Source: Daucus carota subsp. sativus (Eukaryota; Streptophyta; Magnoliopsida; Apiales; Apiaceae). Taken from it: a stretch of DNA of 64,000 nt. Position numbers and translations under genes: made by a program. This document shows, piece by piece, positions 7,109-31,116 of the stretch (the stretch's first letter is position 1; every line of letters begins with the position of its first letter). The stretch is from assembly GCF_001625215.2 (NCBI RefSeq), contig NC_030383.2, positions 64,284,949 to 64,348,948 on the forward strand, given 5' to 3'. The notes under the pieces were generated by a model. The model was not told the DNA's origin. It saw nothing but the letters and a program-made list of their open reading frames with translations, and searched no databases.

Positions 7109-8242
7109 CTATTTCACAAAGTAAGGAAGATCAAGAACGTAGAGAAGGAAATAAGCCCAGGTGACACCAGAGATTCCACCAAAGAAGAATCCTCCGGTGA
7201 ACTTGGCCCATCCATCAGCAGTTTGAAGTTGATCAGGCTTCTTCTTCCTCCCAGTTAAGGTCAATGCTGGTGCAATCGATGGCTCTCCCTCTTTGAATGA
7301 TGCAATCCCATACATAGTCAAACATATGCTAAGAATTGTTACCAGCCCGCCTGCTGCTAGAGATCCAGCTGCACCTGCAAATTCTGTGTTCCTCAATGGA
7401 CCAGCCTTTACAAATGGACCAACAAGAAGGAGCCCATGAGCTAGACCAACCTCGACCCCTCTGAGAAGTGGATTGACAGCTGTCCTGTAGGCTGGAAGGT
7501 TGGAAAGGTACCATGCGATCAATGGGCTTGATGTCACTGGAGTTTCCAGGCTACCAATGAATGGGTCACCATTGATTGGCTGAATTACTTGATATGTAGG
7601 CTGCATAGATAATAGAGAATTCACTTAATTATACCACTCCAGTCGAGTTTCTATCACAACCAAATTTCAGTTTATATAATCTTCTCAGATCCTTGCCATT
7701 ACAAAGTAATAACTAAACCATTTGCACAAGTAGAATGTATCAATATCAACTCAATGAATGATAGCTGAAAATTTTCTAGATATAAATCATGTCTTTTGAA
7801 GGCTTGAACACAATCATATTGCTTAGCCTAATGTGACATGTCGAATTGAAATAACATGAACAAAGCATTTCAGCTAGTTACTCTATATATAGGACTTAGA
7901 TCTACAACCATGATGTAATAGGCCTATGCAGGTCTGTTAAGTTGTCTTCAACAAAAAATTTGAAGTACCACCAAGTACTGAAATTCAATCATCACATGAG
8001 GAGCTAGCTAATAAAAGGTATTACTTGCATGGAAAGAAAGAGAACAAAGTTTACTTATAAAGTGAGCTCCTGACCTTTTCAGCCTGAACAGCCTTGACAG
8101 TGAAGGCAGAGTTTCTCCTCGAAGGTAAGACTCGAAGTGGAGCTCCACAGAGACCTTTGGGACTGACAAGCCCTCTTGTTACTGATGAAGTAAAACTGGT
8201 CTTGAGTTGGTTAGCCATTGTTGAGGCAGTTGCAGCAGCCAT
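7109..8242 (-). CDS. PSAL: Photosystem I reaction centre subunit XI (PsaL), chloroplast precursor
   Basis: There are two exons on the minus strand: 8242-8075 (56 codons) and 7600-7109 (stop at 7111-7109). Together they give 219 aa, the usual length of the plant precursor. The start at 8242 (MAAATAST...) is preferred over an in-frame ATG 39 nt upstream because it gives a classic Ala/Ser/Thr-rich stromal transit peptide. Mature PsaL follows, with [19 protein letters not shown] near its N-terminus, then [17 protein letters not shown] (chlorophyll-binding helix), a second hydrophobic segment [20 protein letters not shown], and a C-terminal helix ending [10 protein letters not shown]. PsaL joins PsaH/PsaI/PsaO at the LHCII docking side of PSI and is needed for PSI trimers in cyanobacteria. 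The upstream flank carries paired I-box motifs, consistent with light regulation. Confidence 0.97.
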
Positions 8243-9243: not shown

Positions 9244-10044
9244 AAGCAAGTCCAAGAGTGTCCTGGTTCAAGCTCCAAATATAATATAAAATATTATGTC
9301 CTAGTAATTTAGGACATATTTTACTAAATTTGAACTCCAACAATGTGCCTTATTCTCACACTAGGTTTAATATTTTATTATTAAAGACTCTCTTTCATCA
9401 TTAAAGCATAATATAAAAGTAGAGAGAGAAAGAGAGTGTTGATGAGAATTTAGAGCAAGTCCAACAGTGTCCTTGTTGGAGCCTCAAATGTAATATAAAA
9501 TATGATGTCCTAATGATTTAGGACATGTTTATCTAAGTTCAACTCCAACAATATGCCTTATTTTTAATATATGTTTAATATTTAATTATTAATGATTCTC
9601 TTTCATCACTAAAACACAATATAAAGTAGAGAGAGAAAGAGAGTGGATAGAAGATTTTATATTAAAATATTGAATAGGGCAAGGAGAGAGGTGCCCTATT
9701 AATAGGGCTTGAGGAGCTTGTCCTAGTGATATAAGGCATCACTAGGACACTGTTGGAGCAATATTCTTAATCAAATGCCTTAAATAATGACTTAGGACAT
9801 CATTTGAGGCATCCGTTGGACTTGCTCTTATAATAAACTTAGGACATCATTTGAGGCATCTGTTGGACTTGCTCTTATAATAAAATATTGAATAGGGCAA
9901 GGTGAGATGTGCTCCAAAAATAGGGCTTGAGGAAATTGTCCTAGTGATATAAGACATCACTAGATATTGTTGGATCAAGTTTTTTCATCGATTGCCCTAA
10001 ATTATAACTTAGGACATGATATAGGGCATCTCTTGGACTTGCTC
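9244..10044. mobile_element. Composite Tourist/Harbinger-like MITE block (outer pair of ends)
   Basis: The outer ends are inverse complements built on GCAAGTCCAAGAGTG (left at 9246, right ending at 10042). The flanking bases are TAA on the left and TTA on the right, so the 3-bp target site is imperfect. Inside sits a second complete element (9453-9827) plus a duplicated right end near 9856-9874. Internal sequence (GTCCTAGTGAT...GGACAT) recurs several times, so at least two related elements are nested or rearranged. Confidence 0.7.
9453..9827. mobile_element. Nested Tourist-like MITE (375 bp) with TTA target duplication
   Basis: It begins GAGCAAGTCCAACAGTGTCC and ends with the inverse of this motif with a few changes. 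TTA directly flanks both sides (9450-9452 and 9828-9830). A 3-bp TWA target and about 20-bp TIRs fit PIF/Harbinger. The same family recurs at 38493-38883. Confidence 0.8.
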
Positions 10045-10180
10045 TTAGGGCCCACTGTTTTTTTCCCTTCTTGAGTTCTACTATTCAACGAGGCCATGCA
10101 GTTGATATGTTTGTTTCTCAATATTCTTTTCAGTTAGCCAGAAGAAATGCATGACTTGTCCTTGTTTTGAGCTTGAGGTC

Positions 10181-10188
10181 TATAAATG
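10181..10188 (+). promoter_or_regulatory. Probable TATA box of the hairpin cluster
   Basis: TATAAATG lies about 70 bp upstream of the first inverted repeat. A Pol II start would be expected near 10210-10220, which would place all four hairpins within one transcript. This is inference from motif and spacing. Confidence 0.45.
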
Positions 10189-10249
10189 CAAGGCAAATGT
10201 TCAATCAAATAGCAACCAACATAGTGTTTGTAGCAGTGTAATTTCATAA

Positions 10250-10330
10250 GTGAGGATTGGTGGAAACTAAACATATATAAGCTTCACTTTTGAAACTTTA
10301 TGCTTAGTTTTCTCCAATACCTTATCTCTG
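10250..10330 (+). ncRNA. Hairpin 1 of the cluster
   Basis: The 5' arm TGAGGATTGGTGGAAACTAA pairs with the 3' arm TTAGTTTTCTCCAATACCTT across a loop of about 28 nt, with scattered mismatches. Confidence 0.55.
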
Positions 10331-10402
10331 ACTTTCACTTCTTGGCTGCTGCTATAGGTGTCGAAAACCTCAGTCTAAAACAGAACGGGAAGTGCAACGT
10401 CG

Positions 10403-10487
10403 AATGTGAGGATTGGAGAAAACTAAACAGATAATCAGGTGATTTTGTTTCATGCATCTGTTTAGTATCCTCCAATATCTCATCTCC
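10403..10487 (+). ncRNA. Hairpin 2 of the cluster
   Basis: The 5' arm GAGGATTGGAGAAAACTAAA pairs with TTTAGTATCCTCCAATATCT. The stem closes with CAG/CTG next to a loop of about 25 nt. Confidence 0.6.
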
Positions 10488-10530
10488 GGCCTTTACTGTC
10501 TAGCACAAAGTTGTTTATGTTTAGTACAAT

Positions 10531-10637
10531 GACGAATGTGAGAGTTGCATGAAACTAAACAGAAAGGTATCTGACTATAAAATACGTGTTCCCTTTCGTG
10601 CATTCTGTCTAGTTTTCTCCAACATCTTACCTCCGCC
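10531..10637 (+). ncRNA. Hairpin 3 of the cluster
   Basis: The 5' arm GTTGCATGAAACTAAACAGA pairs with TCTGTCTAGTTTTCTCCAAC. It has the longest loop (about 37 nt) and the most diverged arms. The outer stem is GTGAGA against TCTTAC. Confidence 0.5.
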
Positions 10638-10730
10638 CTGTACTCATATCTTACAAGGAAAAAGGGGGAAATAGTATAATTTCCCTGATATTACATCTAT
10701 TCCTACAAGGAAACGCATACATCGGCTAAT

Positions 10731-10824
10731 GTTGAACGTGAGGATTGGATGAAACTAAACAGAGTGGCATTTGATTTTTGTTTCGTGCTTTCTGTTTAGT
10801 TTTCTCCAATATCTCATCTTCAAC
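10731..10824 (+). ncRNA. Hairpin 4 of the cluster (most regular stem)
   Basis: The stem runs about 33 bp, from GTTGAACGTGAGGATTGGAT on the 5' side to its near-complement ending ATATCTCATCTTCAAC on the 3' side. There are only a few mismatches and one bulge, and the loop is about 26 nt. Confidence 0.65.
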
Positions 10825-11166
10825 CTTTACTCTTTTAGTACAGTAAATAGAATCTTGCACTAAGCAGCACATTTGCACCAATACTTGCATCCAACGACCA
10901 TGTTATCATTGGTTTAGTCACTAATATTTAAATACAGATACAATAAAGAATTAATAGACCAAAATATATACAAAACAGATCATATTCAGAAAGGTCACAA
11001 TATTAGCAGGCGCAACAAATTATTGAACGACGACTGGCTGAGTTCTATTCTAAAATCTTTATACAGAGTGATAAACATAAATTTATGGAGCAGCATCCAG
11101 TAAAATGCAAGGGTCAACACTAACCGTTAACAAGATTTTAATCAAAGTGTTACCATGCCTGATAAG

Positions 11167-11430
11167 CTAGTAAAGATAAGGAGCTGGGTACTGGTAGAGG
11201 TTCCCAGAGTAATTGCCACGAGCAGCAGTACCCAGAATTGAGGAAACATGGTTATCATACTCACATATATGTAGTATAACTATCACTATCAGTCTGAGAG
11301 AAGTTCTTCTCAGAAGAAACATAGCTGCTCGTAGCAAGTTTCCCATGCCATTGGCTCGGGGTCTTTTGGGTTGAGGTTTTGACACTTCTGACAGCCTTTT
11401 CTTGTCTGCTTTTGCCTTCTGTACAAAACT
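11167..11430 (-). pseudogene. FRIGIDA-like protein, C-terminal exon fragment (broken)
   Basis: Minus-strand reading gives QKAKADKKRLSEVSKPQPKR followed by PRANG, and at the end DNHVSSILGTAARGNYSGN then LYQYPAPYLY and a stop. This matches the shape of FRIGIDA-like protein C-termini as I recall them (KAKADKKR...KPQPKRPRANG, then DNH...LGTA...GNYxGNxYQYxAPYL). Between the two blocks the frame shifts: a Ser/Thr-rich stretch (LATSSYVSSEKNFSQ) is open in a different frame. No upstream coding part is present. A Stowaway-like MITE begins 3 bp beyond the fragment. It is best read as a decayed gene relic with no function. The family call is from memory and moderately sure. Confidence 0.65.
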
Positions 11431-12780: not shown

Positions 12781-12871
12781 TTCTTGAACTTTCTCAATAA
12801 CTGTACAACTAGCCTATAACTTTTTTATTTTATATTAACTTTCACCCCATATTGCAAAGATTAATCTAGAT

Positions 12872-13330
12872 ATGATGACTCCACAGCGACAGAATGGTTC
12901 AGGTTCTGACAAATTTGATGCGTGCAATAGAATGAGGCTGCTAATATCTGACGACGATGACTTTGATGAGAACAAGAGAAAGAGGATGCAGTCTAACAGG
13001 GAGGCTGCTAGGAGATCACGAATGAAAAAGCAGCAGCATGTCCATGAATTAATCACGGAAATAGGCCAGTTGCAGAACCAGTGCAAGGTTATTATGAGTA
13101 AGATTAATCAAGTTACGAATATGTTTCTTGGTGTTGTGTCTGAAAACAATGCTTCGCGAGCACAACTCTCGGATATGACAAAAAGGTTTCACTTGCTCAA
13201 ATCAGTTGTGCAGTTTGTGGAGGAGGCGGAAGATCTTGGTATAGATGTTTCTGATGTGTTGATGGAATCTCCCAAGTTTCCTTGTCCAAAACAGCAAGTC
13301 CCAACTTCTGCTAACATGTTCGACTGCTGA
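12872..13330 (+). CDS. S1-group bZIP transcription factor (bZIP53/bZIP11-like), intronless
   Basis: The 152-aa single-exon protein has a basic region KRKRMQSNREAARRSRMKKQ at about residues 36-55, with the invariant N and R of the bZIP DNA-binding helix. A long zipper of roughly seven to nine heptads follows (L/I/V/M in the d positions). The C-terminus ends SANMFDC, like the ADMFDC end of bZIP53. S1 proteins bind ACGT-core elements, heterodimerise with C-group bZIPs and reprogramme amino-acid and carbon metabolism under low energy. The neighbouring SC-uORF implies translational repression by sucrose. Residues in the zipper and basic region differ somewhat from canonical S1 sequences (REAARR instead of RESARR). 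The start at 12872 is the first of two adjacent ATGs. Confidence 0.93.
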   Translation: MMTPQRQNGSGSDKFDACNRMRLLISDDDDFDENKRKRMQSNREAARRSRMKKQQHVHELITEIGQLQNQCKVIMSKINQVTNMFLGVVSENNASRAQLSDMTKRFHLLKSVVQFVEEAEDLGIDVSDVLMESPKFPCPKQQVPTSANMFDC

Positions 13331-14212: not shown

Positions 14213-15396
14213 TCGAGAGAGAGAGAGACAGAGAGAGTCGTCTCTCTCCCTTGCAAGTCTAGTCGTCGCTGGGGCCTCTCCACACCCTCTCTCCCCCATT
14301 TTTCTTCCACCTCCCCCACAAAACCTCTCTCTCTCTCTCCATATTATTCCACTCTCCCCCTTCCTCCACTAAGCTGCTGCATCCCCAGTTTTACACACAC
14401 CAAAGTTATTTCTCTCTACACCAAGGTAATCTCTCTCTCTCGCGCACACACGTTCAAGTCGTTGAATTCCAGTCAAGATAGACTTTTTCCTCCATCTCTT
14501 GAGTCTTAGCTTGCTTTCTACTTCGATTTACCATCATATACATGTGCTTTTCTTGAATATTATCACCATCTCTACGGGTTTTTGAGTGTGCTAAGCTGCT
14601 TGAGATATGATTTCCGAGGCGGGCGCCTTCAAGATACTATCTTTTCTTTCTCTCTTCGTAAATTTGGAATTTTTTTTACAAGGTTTTTTGATTTTTTTTT
14701 TATTTTAGATAAAAGATCCAGTGATTTTATTGAAGCTTCTGTGATTTTTGGTTAACCTTTGTTCTTATATAGCTAGTAGGTTCTTGAGCTTGATTTTGGC
14801 TGATGAATTGTCTAATTAGTTGGTGATCTGATATCTTGTATGTGAAAGGAAAAACAAAATCTGGACTGTGACTGAATATTTCTTGAAATTTAGTTCCTTG
14901 CTTTGTATAAGCTTAGCTTAATAAGTTGATATAGATAAAGCTAAGGCGCTCTTGAGAAACAAAAGATGTTTTATGGTGGAATTTCACTTTCCCCCAATTT
15001 TGCCTGCCCAATTCAGATAAAAGTCTTTGCAGTTTAACATCACCTCTAAATTATACAATTTGTGTTTTTGACTCGTGGTAAATTAACACGTAGATGTATA
15101 ACTCTGTGATACCCGATGAACATCTTTTTCCGATGTCGACTTAATAGATTATATGAGTATCAATCAGTATATACGTGTATTAATGAGAACTGATAGTCTT
15201 TACTTTGAAGTTGGTACTTTACATGGCTCTTTATCATGTTTGTCAAATTTTCTTTTAATAGAGTTCATATAAGGAACATAACAGTTTAGAATATATTCTT
15301 TTCTCTTTTACAGATTACGATATGCAGCTATGGAATGTTGGAATCAACAATCTAAGGCATTAGATTTTTGAAGTAAAGTTTTTTCGCTTAATAAGG
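14213..15396 (+). other. 5' leader of the BIR1-like gene with pyrimidine tract and leader intron
   Basis: A GA-repeat and then CT-rich stretches (14213-14460) look like a plant 5'UTR. A donor CCAAG|GTAAT at 14426 and an acceptor TTTTACAG ending at 15313 suggest an 888-bp leader intron, common in receptor-kinase genes. Confidence 0.5.
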
Positions 15397-17422
15397 ATGG
15401 AACTGACTAGCAGAGCCCATGTGGTTCGTATTGGCATCTTTACCTGGGGGTTTTTAATTATGAATTTCAGCTATGGTGCTCAGAGCGACATTAACTGCTT
15501 AAGATCTATAAAAGACTCGCTGAAAGATCCTTTGAACAGCTTGTACAATTGGAATTTCAACAATAACACTAATGGCTTTATCTGTAAATTTAATGGGATT
15601 GAGTGTTGGCATGAAAATGATGATAGTGTCTTGAATATAAAGCTTTCAGACATGGGGCTTAAAGGTCAGTTTCCACGTGGTGTTGGTGATTGTAAAGCTG
15701 TGACTGGAGTAGATCTTTCAAGTAATGGGCTCAATGGAACTATTCCAACAGATATCTCTAAACTCCTTCCATATGTCACAAAACTTGATCTCTCTGCTAA
15801 CAGTTTATCCGGAACAATCCCGGTAAACCTTGCAAATTGTTCGTATCTAAATGTGCTTAAGCTAGACAAGAACCAGCTCTCAGGTCAGCTTCCTCTAGAA
15901 CTCGGTCTGCTTGATCGAATTAACACATTTAGTGTGACTAACAATCACTTGAGTGGGCAAGTTCCACAGTTCAAGGCTGGTGTCGTCTCAGCTGATAGCT
16001 ATTCAGGCAATCCAGGGCTCTGTGGGAAGCCTTTGCCCGATTGCAAAGGTTCTTCAAAGAAAAATAATTCTGCAGTCATTGCTGCAGCAGCTGTTGGAGG
16101 AGTGATTGTTGCAGCATTACTGGTAGGCGTAAGTTTGTTATTCTTTTGCCGTAGGGTGGTTAGAAAGAGGGATGATGACCCTGATGGAAATAAATGGGCA
16201 AAGAGTCTCAAAGGTGCAAAAAAAATCCAGGTGAGGCAATCACAATCTTTAATAAAATTACATTTTGATGATTTTTTTTGTCTGGACTCTGGAGTACAAG
16301 GGTTCCGATTTTTAATAATAATTATTATTATTATTTAGTTTTGGATTCTACTTTTCCGGAGCTCATTCAATTTTGAATTGATTATTATTACCTTTGCATT
16401 TTCAGCTTTCTATGTTTGAGAAATCTATTTCAAAAATGAGACTAAGTGATCTCATGAAGGCTACTAACAACTTCAACAAAGATAATATAATTAGTACTGG
16501 GAGAACAGGGACCGTATACAAAGCAGTGCTTGAAGACGGCTCTTCACTTATGGTGAAAAGGTTGCAGGATACTCAGCATTCAGAAAAGGAATTTGAGTCG
16601 GAAATGGCAACTTTAGGAAAGGTGAAACACCGTAATTTGGTCCCTCTTTTAGGTTTTTGTGTGGCTAAGAAGGAAAGACTACTCATTTATAAGTACATGC
16701 AAAATGGCACTCTCCATGATAAGTTGCATTTTGTTGGAGATGGTGAAAAAATTTTGGAGTGGCCTTTGAGGCTCAAAATCGGTATTCAGGCAGCCAAAGG
16801 TTTTGCCTGGCTACATCATAGTTGCAATCCTCGCATCATACACCGCAACATAAGTTCTAAATGCATCTTGCTAGATGTTGAATGCGAGCCCAAAATTACT
16901 GATTTTGGTCTTGCAAGGCTCATGAATCCAGTTGACACCCATTTAAGTACTTTTGTGAATGGTGAGTTCGGGGATTTGGGTTATGTTGCTCCCGAGTACG
17001 CACGAACTCTTGTGGCCACACCAAAAGGGGACGTTTACAGTTTTGGAGTAGTTCTTCTTGAGTTGGTCACCGGGGAGAGACCTACTCATATTGCTAAAGC
17101 CCCTGAAAGCTTTAAGGGAAGCTTAGCGGAATGGATTACAGAATTATCTAGAGACTCTAAGCTTCAAGATGCCATTGACAAACCATTGCTTGGGAAAGGT
17201 TATGATAGTGAGCTTTTCCAGTTTCTCAAGGTTGCATGTAATTGTGTGATTTCAGGTCCGAAAGAGAGGCCAAGTATGTTTGAAGTGTACCAGCTTCTTA
17301 GAGCTATTGGCGAAAGATACAATTTTACATCAGAAGATGATATTTTCCTGCTATCAGATTCAGGGGGTGATGCTGCTTTTGAGGAACTTATTGTTGCCCA
17401 AGATACTAAAGAAAAACACTAA
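15397..17422 (+). CDS. BIR1-like LRR receptor-like (pseudo)kinase
   Basis: Exons 15397-16230 and 16406-17422 join in frame (616 aa). In order: signal peptide (about 1-28), LRRNT with paired Cys (CxxNGIEC), about four to five LRRs (LxLSxNxLxGxIP), and a juxtamembrane Cys pair ([12 protein letters not shown]). A TM helix (about 229-252) follows, with a basic stop-transfer CRRVVRKR, and then a kinase fold. The closest family I recognise is BIR (BAK1-interacting receptor-like kinase, At5g48380 type), which restrains BAK1/SERK immune and growth signalling at the plasma membrane. The glycine loop reads [11 protein letters not shown] and the VAIK Lys is present (LMVKRL). The catalytic loop is HRN near residue 426, with the Asp replaced. 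DFG and APE are intact. The HRN change predicts weak or no phosphotransfer, as in BIR pseudokinases. A probable leader intron lies upstream. Confidence 0.93.
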
Positions 17423-19448: not shown

Positions 19449-22400
19449 ATGGATTCAAGTAGTTGTCCTTCAAATGCAATTCCCGTAGTTTCAACCTTCA
19501 CTTCACCATTTGAGACTTGTGATGATCAGAAAAAGCCCCTCAGCTTGTGGCCTGGAATGTATCATTCTCCTGTTACTAATGCTTTGTGGGAAGCAAGGTC
19601 CAGTATTTTTGAAAGACTTCTTGATTTCTCAGTTGATGCTCCACCCCAGAGTCAACTGCTTACAAGAACTCCTTCTCAGAGCCGCACTGCAATTCTCTAC
19701 AATTTCTCTTCTGATTATATCTTGAGAGAACAGTACAGGGATCCGTGGAATGAGGTCAGAATTGGTAAATTGCTTGAAGACCTTGATGCTCTTGCTGGCA
19801 CCATCTCAGTCAAGGTGCCTTTTTTTATTTTCTTCTATTTTCTTTATTTGTGCTAGTTATGGACTTGTAGTGACCCAGATATTTGTTTTCGAAAAGGGGT
19901 TTCGCAATCTGCATTGATTTTGTACCATCTTGATTTTTGACTTGTGTTTCTTTTGTTTAACTAGCATTGTTCTGATGATGATCACATGACAAGGCCTCTG
20001 TTGTTGGTGACGGCTTCCGTCGACAAAATGGTTCTCAAGAAGTCGATCAGTGTCGACATTGATTTGAAAATTTCAGGAGCTGTTATTTGGGTCGGGAGAT
20101 CCTCGATTGAGATTCAACTGGAAGTCACTCAGCTCACAAATGGTATGCGACTCAGAATAATCTTAAAATCAACTTGTTTATATGGTCAAATTGTTTTTTA
20201 TATAGAAATGTGAGGACTTTGATGTGGATTGTGTAGTCGTTTCCGACCACCCTTTGACCAGGGACTATGTCAACTTTTAATATACAATTTTGGACTAAAG
20301 ATAGTGAAATAGTTGATGTAATTATGTATATAAAAGAACTATAATCTAGTAATGTTTTTGGTATCTGAGGCGTCTAAAAGGTAACAAAGTTGTTGACTCT
20401 TATTGGCTTCCAATTCCCCACTATTGTTGGATATCTGCTAGTAATTTATACCTAAGGGAACACAATATCTGGATATGTGGTTATTGAACAAATATTGTGA
20501 ACACACCTACCTGGACACAATATCTGGAAATATGGTTGATGGAAAACATTGTCGACATAGGATTCTTCAAGTTGAACTAAAACATTATCAGCTGAATCAT
20601 GAGTTGTTCTAGCTTCTTAGTTGTAGGCTGGTTGCATAAAATGATTATGAGCTTAATCATAAATTGTTCTCGCTTCTTATCTGCTTTTAGTTATTTCTCA
20701 GCCCAGTTTATGAAGATGCTAATAACCTCTCATATTTTACCTGAAATCTAAAAAATGTGGAAAATATTGTGGCAGGAAGCACTGATACTTTCAACTCGGT
20801 AGCTCTTATGGCCAATTTCATATTTGTGGCTCGTGACTCAAAGACGGGGAAAGCTGCTCCAGTAAATCGACTTTCCCCAGAAACTAAAGAAGAGACATTG
20901 CTCTATGAAGAAGCAGAAGCAAGAAATGAACTGCGTAAACAGAAGAGAGGAGGTGACAAAAGGGATATTGAAAATGGGAATAGACTTGAAGCATTATTGG
21001 GTGAAGGCCGGATCTTCTCTGACATGCCAGCCTTGGCAGATCGAGACAGTATTCTTCTCAGGGATACACGTTTGGAGAACTCTTTGATTTGCCAACCACA
21101 GCAAAGGAATATCCATGGCCGGATTTTTGGAGGATTTCTAATGCACCGAGCATTTGAATTGGCTTTTTCAACAGCATATGTTTTCGCTGGCATGATGCCG
21201 TGTTTTCTTGAAGTTGATCACGTCGATTTCTTAAGACCGGTTAGTATTACTAAGCCAAACTAAAATCTAGACATTATCTTTGTTTGTCAGCTTGAAAAGA
21301 GCAATGTCTCTTAAATGAAGAGTATAACTCTAAACTCCAACTCGCTTTCTTCCCTCCCTTTGTTGGCATCACTTCTCCTTTGCACATCAAGTCCACTACA
21401 TTAGCGAGAGAGATGGAGAGAGATGTTTTCCTATCACTAATCCAGAATATTGTCTTTTCAATTCGAATACCTCTAACTGGGAGGCAGACATGCTTCTCCT
21501 TTCACATGTCTTTCATAATAGTTGATGGACGTCCGGGATGGTATGAGGAATATGTCCACATATTCAGATCATAAAACCTCAGTCTAACCTCTTTAACTGT
21601 GGCATTTTCTCACCAGTTTATTTCATTGTTTGATGTTTGGCTTTTCCTTATTGTAAAATTATAGGACAGGCATCACCAAGTTATGTTAGACAGGAACTAG
21701 GTAGGGTTCAAAATGGGGTGGGGGAAATGGCGAACCCGCCCCGTTAATACGGGGAATGGGGTAGTGATGGGGAGTAATTTTCCGCCCTGCCAAAATCTGG
21801 GGCAAGTATGGTCTATGTCCCCCCCCCCCTCCCTGCCCCCACCCCCGCCCCCGCCCCCGCCCCGCGCAGACACACATATATTATTGTGTTATCCTAATTT
21901 GACATACATGTATTTATTTAGTTTTGGCTAAATGACATGTACGTATTTCTAGCATACATGTATTATATAATTTTATTAAATTCTCACGAAAAAAATCACT
22001 ATCCTTTTAAGCAACTTCTAAAATTATATATAGAAACGGGGTAAGATGGTTGGGGTGAAATATTTAAAATCCCCGGTGGGACGGAGATGGGAATTAAAAA
22101 TATATCCCGACGGGGAATGGGCCGGGGCCGCGGGGACGGGGCGAAAAAAATATATATTGGGGCGGGGTTGGGAAATGAAGTCCCCGCCCCAGTTTTAACC
22201 CTAGAATTAGGGAGTTACATAAACACTATCAAGAGGCCGTTTGGGTGAGTTTAAAAGAGTGGCTTATGCCTTATAGTGACTTATTGTGATAAGTGTGAAC
22301 CGTAAAATATCTGGTTGGGTAATTTTGTATTATAGGTGACTTGTGACTTGATAAAAATATAATAATAAAAAATAAATATGATAGGTTAGTTATTTGAGTG

Positions 22401-23158: not shown

Positions 23159-23880
23159 CAAGATATATTAGATATATACATAAATATCTTTTATATAAGA
23201 ACACCCCTGAATAAACAAGGTTCAGCAGTTAGTTATGTACCTGAAAGAATAACCATTGGTGCAGGAGACTGATTGGGTTTTTTTCTTCCTTATTCATATA
23301 TGCATCCATTGTACAAGGCTGCAGTACATTTCTATGTTTAACCTTAACATTACTGGGTGGCATATGTTTGCTTATATAAAACAGCTGTAGTTACTAGCTA
23401 ACTATTACAGATATACAGGTTCAAGTAAAAGACTTGGCTAGAGTTGACTCAGTTTCCACATGTTTAACGTTATTATGTTTGAGGTGGTGTCTTGCGATGC
23501 TCTTTCCACTTTGCTTGATTTTCTGCAGCATATTAGCATTGTAAACAAATGAATACAAAACTGGAAGTCGTCGAAGACCTAACACTAGAACTTGTTTCCT
23601 AGTGAATTTTCTGATATCTCTGGAGACGCAATAATTTAATCACGGCTGTAACGTGCTCGAAGAACAGAAGCTGGAACTGAAGCTTCTCAACACAGTGTTT
23701 GCTAAGCAAGTGAAGTATTTTATATATGGTTTGGATCTAGCTTCTCAGTATAAAAAATTCGATGTCTTCAGGAACATGTGCTGATGGTGAGTTTAAAATT
23801 AGTAATTATGACAGCATATCCTTCTGCATTCTAATATTCCATCCTTCATTATTGGCATGGATCCAAAGATATATATATAT

Positions 23881-24400
23881 AGGGGTTTGTTCAAATACAA
23901 ACCAACTTTATCATAAAAACCTAAAAACCAATTTCAAAACTAAACAAATATCCCCCCAAACTCTTAAAAACTAACAATATCCCCCCCCCAGCTTTGCCAT
24001 CAACTTTCCCAAACTTACACTTTCCACCCCGCCACGTCACCACGCCACGTCAGCGCAGGGGTCCCCCACTGCTGACGTGGCACTGCCACGTCAGCACTGG
24101 GTCACACCCACTGCTGACGTGGCAGTGCCACGTCATCTGCCACGTCAGCACCTGCTGATGTGGCACTGCCACGTCATCTGCCACGTCAGCAGTGGACTGG
24201 CCCAGTGCTGACGTGGCAGCTGATGTGGCAGTGCCACGTCAGCAGGTGCTGACGTGGCAGATGATGTCATCAGTGGGCCCCCCTGAAAATTAAAAAAAAT
24301 AAAAAATAAAAAGATTGGAGTGCTCATAGCAAAAATGGGAGTGGAAATAGTGGTTTTTAGGTTTGTATGAGAGTGTGGTTTGTAGTGGAATAAGCCCCTA
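23881..24400. mobile_element. (TA)n-flanked element carrying an ACGT-motif palindrome array
   Basis: The element sits between (TA)n runs on both sides. The left end AGGGGTTTGTTCAAATACAA (then ACC) and the inverse of the right end (AGGGGCTTATTCCACTACAA, then ACC) form TIRs. The centre is a GC-rich palindromic array (24031-24258). No ORF is credible. Elements inserted into TA microsatellites with such ends are known in plants. A related design is seen at 47223-47477. Confidence 0.75.
24031..24258. repeat. Array of 12 TGACGTGGC sites in alternating orientation
   Basis: Perfect TGACGTGGC or its inverse starts at 24031, 24044, 24073, 24085, 24115, 24127, 24139, 24168, 24180, 24209, 24233 and 24250, plus TGATGTGGC variants at 24156 and 24221. 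About 60 bp near 24134-24195 is repeated inverted at about 24200-24265, so single strands could fold into a long hairpin. TGACGTGG is a G/C-hybrid ACGT box bound by plant bZIP factors. Whether it functions here is unknown. Confidence 0.9.
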
Positions 24401-25773
24401 TATATATATATATTCGCACATGCGTGGCTAGTGCAGCAATGGTAACTGATCCAACTCCATAGGGTCATCTCCCAACACCTAGAACAATGCCTTCTCTCAA
24501 CTTTAGCAAATGAAAATTCATTGTTATGTATGTTCAAACATCTGGTTCTGGATTTTTCAATCACTGCACAATGTTCCTTTCGAGCTCTGAAGAACCTAAG
24601 AAACTTTCAAGGGGGACTGAAGCTCTAATGGTATTGCTCATCAAGTGTCAACTTTGTTTACCAACTCTTTTTGTTTACTAAATTTGTTCTTAATCAGTAA
24701 ATGTTGATGCAATTTCTTTTCATAAAGGGAGTATCGAAACTGCTTCCACTAGATTGATCACTTTCGGCTTTTGTTTGCATCTTTTTTGCACCATAGTGAG
24801 AGAACATTTAACCCTTTTTATCTTGCAGTTTTTTATAATAAAAATTAAAAGGCAAAGGTCTACACTCGTAAAGTTAAAGGTGAAAATATTGGGACGTTAT
24901 GAGCTTTAGGGACACAGTAGATCTGCGCATCATTTTGATTGCACTCCACCACTTGGGATTCCCTTTACATGCACCAACCGATTCCATTTTTGAACCACAA
25001 CATTGTCACATTATGAATATGGTACCATTTGAGAAACGTCCCCAATGCCTTCATCATCATTGCATCTTTTCCTGTCAACACCCAAATTATGGCCTAGCAA
25101 ACATGTATCAACAAGAACCTCGGAATCAGGTCACTATACCAAACTCTGAATTGGAATTTAGGGGAAAAACTAAATTTATTTGATGACACAAGTGGATGTT
25201 ATACTCGTATTAAGCAAATAAAAATACATCATATACTTAAATTCAGATCGACTGGTGCCCAAGCGGACCTGGTCGTAGAAGAGGTCTAGAACTTGATTTT
25301 CTACTCCCCTCCTAATCTTTAAAAAAAAAATGTCAGCTACTACAAAAACACACTATACTTCTTGTTGTAAAAACTAAAAAACGTGGAATGCAAGTTCTCA
25401 AGCAGAAGATTTCAGCTAAAGCGGAGATAACAAGGAGTATTAAGTCCTGCATCATACCTACTACTCATTTCAACAGACTTGGGTAGGGCAACTGTGCAAA
25501 AGTAGTCCGATTAAATAATCATAACTGTGAAATAAAGAGCATTACACATCCAAATCTGATTTATCGTGACTTCAGAATAGATTTGGTGTTTGTCATCTCC
25601 ATAGCAACAAATTTCCTCTATATATATTGATGGTAACTACAATTTTCAAAATCTTTTATATGGATCTATATAAATACAAGGAGACAAACAACAAAGCAAT
25701 AAGATTACATTTACCTATATTTTGGCAGGAGACCATCCTAAAAAGGCTCCTCCTATCCTACGACTTGTAACCA
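24401..25773. other. Convergent intergenic region
   Basis: This is the gap between the 3' ends of the thioesterase gene and the formin gene. The 25250-25330 stretch ends in an A run and faintly resembles a SINE tail, but there is no firm boundary. Otherwise nothing is recognised. Confidence 0.4.
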
Positions 25774-28700
25774 CTAAGGAGATGAACTTTCGTCAGAAGA
25801 AGAATCGTACTGCCTCCTTTCTGAAAACCCGGCAAAACCCGGAGGCATGGTTGGATTCACGGGTACTGGGAATTTGTGGGCAGAACTGACTATTGTTCGC
25901 TCATTTATCAATCCTACTTCCTTGCAAACACGATCAAGAATCGTTAAAAAGTCCCTAACGACCAAGAATATTCTGAAAGGGTGAGCTTCTTCCTTGGCGG
26001 AGTTCCCATGGAAGTATTCTGTGATCTCTTTTACCAAAGAAAGTGCAACACTTTCTTGAGCTTGAGTTCTTATGATCTCCTCCTCTGCCATTTTTACAAA
26101 ATTGCCCATTGATTTAGAAAATCCTCGACTGTTCTCATCAGATTCTAAAGCCTGAATCATCCGGACGATTTCTGCTATTTTTCCAATTCCTCTAGAAAGC
26201 TTCAAGACATCTCCGCTAAGCACCTCAGAATCCATGGATGCAGCTTTCTTTACATTTGTAAGGTCCAAGCTGATACTTGAAACGACCTGCAGACCAAGCT
26301 TCCTCAACTTGGCATCATCAGCAGAAGTCGGTTGTACAGTTTGGTTGGCATTAGAAAGTCGAGCACCTTCAGTTCTTATTATTTCCTGGACCACAAAATG
26401 CAAAAGAGTTGTTTTTCCATCTGCACCCTTTATATCGACGAGCTTAAGGAGAGTATCAAGCTTAAAAGCCTGGGCATCACCACGATTTGTACCAACATTC
26501 ATGCGGTTTCCGGTTTTAAGAACAGCTTCCAAAAGCTTTAGAAACATCCTGCTGGTCCTAAGCTCTTCACATGCGGCCTGTTGTTTTTAAACTACTCAGC
26601 ATTGATAAAACTACTATATGATGATCAAGGAATTTTTACCAATAAACTACATAAAAGTGAGTACTTCTTGTCAATGAACTAGTAAACATCAGAACCCATT
26701 GACAGTGTGCGTGATTTTGTTTATAATTCTAATTCTATACATACGTACAAAATATTGTAAAATAATTAACTTGCTTGCACTGGGACCTAAATGTTGCAAG
26801 TTAATATATCTGACTTGCTCAATGAGAATCAGAAAAGATCTATGAGTTATTTGGCAATTAGATACTTATAACATATAATGTAGCAAAGGTGTTTGCTCTG
26901 TTTGAAATTCCTATTTAGCTCATGAAGTTGAATTTAAAAGTTCCAGTTACATAGTCAATACGAACAAGATAAACAATATAATGAATATACAAAACAAACA
27001 TGATAAGTCTTGTAAAATAATAGCTTACCTCCAGTGTTTCAAATGACTTTTTGAGGTACTCGACCTCAGAATCAAAATTGGACACGTAAAGCATAGCCTC
27101 AACCCTTCTAAATGCGAAAGGTATATCAAGCATTGACTTCAAAAATTTCTCAGCGGGACCAAGTTTGAAAGGCGAGTCGTCTTTATATTCTTTCAGCTTA
27201 CGTTCTTCCTCCTTGGTAGGAGCCATCTTCAATAGACTTTCAAGAAGCTCAGTTCCGAGGTTATCAGCATTGCCTGCATAAAAACATGTTTCTATCGTTT
27301 ACGAATAATAATACTTGAATTCTCTAATTACTAACAATTTTTCACTTTTTCAGCCAATTGATCAAAGCTTCTTGTCAAATATCATTACATTCATTCCTCT
27401 ATTCACCTTAAAAGCTTTGTAGACATTGACTAAAACTGACAGAATACACTAGATCATAATGAAGCAAAAGATGGTGTTAACCCAAACAGTAGGAAGCTGG
27501 AGTTACCTTCCAGAAGAGCTTCACACACTTCCTCTATTGTGACATTAAGGGCCCTTAGCAAAATGGCAACATTCTGGGACTTCTTCGGATCCAGTACACG
27601 ATTTTCTTGCCCTGATGAGGGAAGAACTGGACGCCAAGTTGTTTCATTGGGAGTTACAGTAGGAGTCGGTTTATTCACAACAAACAATGTCTCCATCATT
27701 TCCTCATTCAACCTGTAGCAATCATACGATTAAATAATACGGCTAAAGCAACTAACAACAACACGGTGAAAAGGGAATAAGTGGAGGACTGTACTTGAAA
27801 GAACTTGATCTAAGGTGATCCCACACAGTTTCACGATCAGAACTTGCTCTGACTTTATCCCAATGCAATGGCTTTAACTTCAATTTAGGAGTGTCTTCAT
27901 CCACATTGTCAGTGCTTTGAGGGGGCATTTCTATGGGAGATATCAGTGCTGGAGTGGCTAAAGTCACAGGCCGAGAAGGGGCAGCCAGGACCGGTGGCCT
28001 CAACACGGGCTGAGCCATTTTAGTACCAGGGGTTTTCGGACTTTCAGATTGTCTTGTCGGTGGTAGGGGTGGTGGTGGTGGTGGAGGCAATGATGGAGCA
28101 TCCGCAAAATTGTGAATTCTAGCAGGTGAGGAGGAAGGGCGATGAGAAGAAGCTGGTGAAGATACATGAGATGCTGTTGGTGATGAAGCCTGACTTTCAC
28201 TAATGTATCTTTCGGGTGACGAAGAAACTGGTGAAGATGCAGCCGTGAAACCAAGATGCTGTGGATGTAATGTACTGGTCACTCGATCTACGGATGATAA
28301 TTCAGAAGCTTGTGATGATACATCACTCAGATCCTTCATTTGAAGCGGAGTCAATTCAGGTGATTTGGTTGTTGAAAAGTGTTTAGGACTTAAACTTGCC
28401 GGAGGAGAAATGCTCAAAGAAACAGACCTCACCGGCGAACCACCCGAATCGGAAGGGGTATAAGAGGTTGAAGATGAAGTGGTGGATTCAATTTCTCTTC
28501 TCTCGTCTTGGAAACTCTTAGGCTCGTACAACGTCCTTCTTGATCCAGTACCGATTGAGCCTTTGGGAGAGTAAAATTCATCGTTTTCGTCTTCTTCATC
28601 TGCAATGAGAGGGCCTGAATAGTCCGCATTTTGGAAGTTCTGTTGCTGGGGTTGTTGGCCGCTGAGTTTGAGTGGCGGCAGTGGTTGCAAGTCCGGTGAT

Positions 28701-30812: not shown

Positions 30813-31116
30813 CTCCCTATGTCCCTCTCATTTCTTTACTGTTACTATTTTGGGATGTCCCTCTCATTTCTTTACATTACTATAAATAATAAGTTTTTTT
30901 CATCATTACACCCACTATCTTCTCCCACTATCTCATATTTAACAATAAAAACTACTATTACACCCACTACTTTCCTCCACTATCTTAAATCTATTATTAA
31001 ATATTGATAGATCTCATCACTTTACCCACTTTTCATCTAACTTTACTCATTTTTCATACATTGTCTTGGTCTCCGTGTCCCCCTCCAAAGTAAACAATTG
31101 AGGGGGACGGAGGGAG
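30813..31116. mobile_element. Stowaway-like MITE, family D copy 1
   Basis: The ends CTCCCTATGTCCCTCTCATT and …GGGGGACGGAGGGAG are flanked by TA on both sides. The interior shares ATGTCCCTCTCATTTCTTTA and CTCCAAAGTAAACAATTGAG with the copy at 32393-32656. Confidence 0.8.

Follow-up and report, generated by a model that had tools for sequence, protein, structure and literature searches.

The block at 10241-10826 on the forward strand of the window (the whole 64-kb stretch of DNA that was analysed) is best read as a polycistronic MIR2275 locus of four hairpins, belonging to a known miRNA family, with a probability of about 0.94. The assignment to MIR2275 rests on a covariance-model match, on predicted structure and on clustering. 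That this is a clustered, probably polycistronic miRNA locus is well supported by the structure, by the Rfam match and by arms that are more conserved than the spacers between them. An earlier note on this DNA had proposed a polycistronic MIR locus, and the fold energies, the Rfam match and the conservation of arms relative to spacers bear it out. The same note could not place the arms in any miRNA family, and here it has to be corrected, as the arms are those of miR2275 and its star. The claim of an unknown miRNA family is now replaced by a testable MIR2275 assignment, and the case illustrates that a genuine miRNA cluster can be found by reading the raw sequence without a database. The locus is an ordinary one, because both the MIR2275 family and its polycistronic arrangement have already been published.

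The Rfam match and the four folds

The whole window was scanned with Rfam 15 at gathering thresholds, which for RF03896 (MIR2275) is 60.5 bits. This family accounted for both of the two matches above gathering, both of them inside the block, and no other Rfam family exceeded its own gathering score anywhere in the 64 kb. A search of 9600-11400 at an E-value threshold gave four hairpins, all of which cover the full model (1-95):

10241..10334, + strand: MIR2275 hairpin 1; RF03896 at 50.3 bits, below gathering; E 3.2e-8 in 1.8 kb, 1.1e-6 in 64 kb; model 1-95
10397..10492, + strand: MIR2275 hairpin 2; RF03896 at 62.8 bits, above gathering; E 7.5e-10 in 64 kb
10529..10639, + strand: MIR2275 hairpin 3; RF03896 at 42.4 bits, the lowest, below gathering; E 3.3e-6 in 1.8 kb, 1.2e-4 in 64 kb
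10729..10826, + strand: MIR2275 hairpin 4; RF03896 at 70.8 bits, the best match and the best fold; E 6.7e-12 in 64 kb

The gathering score is thus reached by hairpins 2 and 4 and missed by hairpins 1 and 3. Because the latter two fall below the curated score, and an E-value by itself says little about a hairpin, their assignment to MIR2275 depends mainly on their likeness to hairpins 2 and 4 and on their place in the array. On the antisense strand, hairpins 4 and 2 score 42.9 and 40.2 bits with MIR2275, and hairpin 3 does not exceed the former. An E-value alone is unsafe for hairpins because an unrelated palindromic repeat at 24130-24267 obtains E 2.6e-13 with MIR6140, yet scores 77.7 of 140 bits, about half of that cut-off. 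At 23866-24414 the window holds a MITE-like element whose outer inverted repeats measure 39 nt (87% complementary) and 31 nt (81%), and the core of which, at 24044-24267, is made up of nested TGACGTGGCA palindromes and drew many sub-threshold Rfam miRNA matches. In the MIR2275 block itself, eight weak matches to other families (MIR5020, MIR1888, MIR1507 and others), at 21.8-27.5 bits and far below the cut-offs, were taken as chance matches on hairpins.

The fold energies of hairpins 1-4 are -27.4, -30.7, -22.7 and -38.9 kcal/mol, with MFE z-scores of -5.75, -4.08, -2.83 and -8.62 (200 dinucleotide shuffles each; hairpin 1 taken as 10245-10330). All four keep their own stems when 10205-10900 is folded whole. 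The MFEI is 1.23 for hairpin 4 and 0.52 for hairpin 3, which is the weakest fold, has a 46-nt loop and carries the weakest duplex (-10.0 kcal/mol); it may be decaying or poorly processed. Between the predicted duplexes the loops measure 29, 31, 46 and 33 nt, so that the 25-37 nt given previously holds for three of them and fails for hairpin 3. Four inverted repeats in one orientation with common arms had been described, and four copies of each arm were indeed found, all on the + strand. By the ends of the Rfam matches the hairpins lie 62, 36 and 89 nt apart, with start-to-start spacings of 156, 132 and 200 for the 5' arms and 158, 147 and 187 for the 3' arms. Four hairpins on one strand within 10241-10826 form the kind of cluster expected of MIR2275 stem-loops, presumably carried on a single transcript.

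Predicted mature and star arms

The predicted 22-nt mature arms have the folds and a comparison with printed 22-mers as their evidence, and the stars were placed by imposing 2-nt overhangs, which gave 21 nt in all four cases:

10253..10273, + strand: predicted miR2275* of hairpin 1, 21 nt; 2-nt overhang rule imposed on the fold
10303..10324, + strand: predicted miR2275 of hairpin 1, 22 nt; fold and comparison with printed 22-mers
10409..10429, + strand: predicted miR2275* of hairpin 2; 2-nt overhang rule imposed
10461..10482, + strand: predicted miR2275 of hairpin 2; fold and comparison with printed 22-mers
10541..10561, + strand: predicted miR2275* of hairpin 3; 2-nt overhang rule imposed
10608..10629, + strand: predicted miR2275 of hairpin 3; fold and comparison with printed 22-mers
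10741..10761, + strand: predicted miR2275* of hairpin 4; 2-nt overhang rule imposed
10795..10816, + strand: predicted miR2275 of hairpin 4; fold and comparison with printed 22-mers

For hairpins 1-4 in turn the predicted 22-mers are CTTAGTTTTCTCCAATACCTTA, TTTAGTATCCTCCAATATCTCA, TCTAGTTTTCTCCAACATCTTA and TTTAGTTTTCTCCAATATCTCA, and CTCCAA is present in every one. The 20-nt 3' arm of the earlier note is the predicted mature 22-mer of hairpin 4 minus its first two bases. With up to three mismatches, this 22-mer occurs four times in the 64-kb window, each time in the block, as against a mean of 0.00 in 100 dinucleotide shuffles.

Five printed 22-mers were used for comparison, namely zma-miR2275a-3p, osa-miR2275d and ata-miR2275a-3p (PMC6852985), mes-miR2275 (PMC4848955) and Pto-F50 (PMC3646847), the last a poplar floral 22-mer listed there as novel and also printed in PMC4189724, which by its sequence looks like miR2275. 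Alignment to the printed mature and star sequences needs no gap over the 22 and 21 nt. The predicted 22-mers differ from the five at 2-6 of 22 positions (4-6 for hairpin 1, 2-5 for hairpin 2, 4-6 for hairpin 3 and 2-3 for hairpin 4), so the 3' arms resemble known miR2275, those of hairpins 2 and 4 most closely. The 22-mers of hairpins 1 and 3 are 6 of 22 positions away from maize miR2275a-3p, a distance that shuffled windows also attain when cassava is the query (their best values were 5-7 over 10 shuffles), and 4 away from cassava miR2275, which none of the 10 shuffles reached. The predicted stars share the 21-nt length of the printed ata-miR2275b-5p (PMC6852985) and differ from it at 4-5 positions. 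Elsewhere in the window, a miR2275-like 22-mer at 30966-30987 (+) lies 5 of 22 positions from cassava miR2275; two of ten shuffled windows also reach 5, and it is probably a chance match.

Position 17 of the miRNA, an A, is unpaired in all four folds, with further unpaired positions at 1 and 11 in hairpin 1, 7-9 in hairpin 2, 2 and 10-12 in hairpin 3, and 10 in hairpin 4. Bulges are marked in miR2275/miR2275* duplexes according to the legends of Figures 1 and 3 of PMC6367383, and the likeness of the unpaired A to that bulge is one by legend, not by base position.

Conservation and the competing readings

Compared pairwise among the four hairpins, the 3'-arm 22-mer has a mean identity of 0.83 and the 5'-arm 21-mer one of 0.85; the value falls to 0.68 and 0.64 in the 12-nt lower-stem flanks, and is 0.29-0.42, by gapped alignment, among the three stretches taken as spacers. 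The loops range from 0.48 to 0.70 in gapped identity over six pairs, with a shuffled mean of 0.51. The conserved arms of the earlier note are therefore confirmed, while its unrelated loops are not all unrelated, those of hairpins 2 and 4 standing at 0.70. Its conserved spacer tails exist as conserved flanks, but these are the precursor's lower stem, inside the Rfam model, and not spacer. The consensus fold of the four hairpins contains 32 pairs. In 5 of these, one hairpin has replaced both bases and still pairs; two such pairs belong to the lower stem, one to the duplex, one to the loop-side end of the duplex and one to the loop. For 8 of the 32, pairing is lost in one hairpin. Since four paralogues are few, these pair-keeping double changes are supportive rather than strong. 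Together with the greater conservation of arms than of spacers, they suggest past selection on the stems.

The same figures bear on the possibility of a degenerate cluster, in which the family would be right and processing would have ceased at some or all of the hairpins. The sub-gathering scores of hairpins 1 and 3 and the low MFEI, z-score and duplex energy of hairpin 3 point that way. Against this, hairpins 2 and 4 retain full model matches and strong stems, five of 32 pairs have been kept through double-sided change and the arms have outlasted the spacers in similarity, and we consider such decay unlikely. That the hairpins derive from a MITE or another transposon-derived family of inverted repeats is very improbable: duplicated MITE-like DNA does lie closely upstream, at 9657-10047, but no further copy of the mature arm (with up to three mismatches) exists in the 64-kb window, the hairpins are unevenly spaced (156, 132, 200) with dissimilar spacers, and two of them exceed the cut-off of a curated miRNA family. 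A previously unknown miRNA family, for which it could be said that the arm sequences were not found in a literature search of the main texts of open papers, has next to no probability, given that two of the four hairpins score above gathering with RF03896 and that the arms can be aligned gap-free to printed miR2275 mature and star sequences.

Putative transcript, function and published relatives

The cluster read as MIR2275 is preceded by a motif in the place where a TATA box about 70 bp upstream had been noted:

10181..10187, + strand: TATAAAT, TATA-box-like, putative core promoter of the cluster; found by pattern match

It lies 66 bp ahead of the first predicted star (10253). The block had also been described as free of any crossing ORF, which agrees with the 13 ORFs of 25 aa or longer (ATG, GTG or TTG start) that touch 10100-10900, the longest being only 54 aa.

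The literature on relatives is the source for what can be proposed on transcription as one unit, processing, stage of expression, targets and phasiRNA output, and by that analogy a single anther-expressed transcript likely gives rise to several variants of miR2275, by which 24-PHAS transcripts are cleaved. Judged from the TATA box, a single Pol II transcript would start near 10210 and fold into the four stem-loops. Processing of the DCL1 type, which is general for plant miRNAs, would then cut 22-nt miR2275 variants out of the 3' arms, each in a duplex with a 21-nt star and with the A at position 17 unpaired; asymmetric duplexes favour the triggering of phasiRNAs. In meiotic anthers, the targets of these 22-nt variants would be non-coding 24-PHAS transcripts, whose cleavage would start the production of 24-nt phased siRNAs, by DCL3 in eudicots if the hypothesis of Xia et al. 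(PMC6367383) holds. The triggering of phasiRNAs by 22-nt miRNAs is documented in PMC5902766. The variants of hairpins 1 and 3 have diverged, with changes in base 1 or 2 and close to the 3' end; it is quite improbable that they have gained a target set of their own, with one anther transcript feeding two partly separate phasiRNA programmes.

Target prediction, which the earlier note had suggested for the transcriptome, was run on the 64-kb window only and gave no miR2275 site in cis outside the cluster, a result that is uninformative, as targets are expected in trans. Of its 13 hits, which score 5 or less, 12 correspond to the antisense of the mature arms themselves and one to the star region of hairpin 2 (+).

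In eudicots, 24-nt reproductive phasiRNAs are triggered by miR2275, cleavage by which initiates their phase, and the miRNA has been reported in litchi, citrus, grape, strawberry and cotton, while it was listed as not detected in Brassicaceae, Solanaceae, Cucurbitaceae and Fabaceae (Xia et al. 2019, PMC6367383). In litchi, as described there, cleavage of 24-PHAS transcripts is confirmed by PARE, and both miR2275 and 24-nt phasiRNAs are enriched in meiotic anthers; in peach buds, ppe-miR2275 rises with pollen development (PMC8098804). Through 24-nt reproductive phasiRNAs, a MIR2275 locus is relevant to the development of anthers. That MIR2275 stem-loops sit in clusters on one precursor is reported as a conserved feature from grasses to eudicots (PMC6367383), and the present locus adds a four-hairpin example to this architecture. 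It shares with the eudicot precursors of that paper several same-strand stem-loops within about 0.6 kb and variant mature sequences, and differs in number, with four stem-loops here, two to three in litchi and up to six within about 1 kb in Fragaria vesca. With the Rfam family it has in common four hairpins matching model 1-95, the 3'-arm 22-mer and a conserved lower stem; unlike it, two hairpins lie under the curated threshold and the 22-mers are 2-6 of 22 positions off the printed ones. The strawberry miRFBX clusters (Xia et al. 2015, via PMC5902766) are similar in being a cluster of 22-nt miRNAs that trigger phasiRNAs, although their targets are F-box genes. An identity with miRFBX was set aside once Rfam named MIR2275, the two being separated by the Rfam match and by description, not by sequence.

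As for the surroundings, the MITE-like tandem copies at 9657-10047 comprise an 89-nt segment, 89% identical between copies 218 bp apart, together with related 85-nt segments, and end about 130 bp ahead of the TATA box. For the stretch at 20745-21260 a Pfam scan at 0.001 gave no hit. By the genes it encodes the window is plant DNA, from a flowering plant and, to judge by its A+T-rich composition, probably a eudicot. PsaL, which has matches to 86 distinct photosystem I chain sequences, is encoded at 7112-7624 (-) and a bZIP protein at 12839-13327 (+), on either side of the cluster. An LRR receptor-like kinase at about 15364-17422 (+) comes in two open stretches, 15364-16338 with a run of isoleucines at its end and 16382-17422, a split that may reflect an intron, a frameshift or a pseudogene; a formin FH2 stretch is found at 25777-26586 (-).
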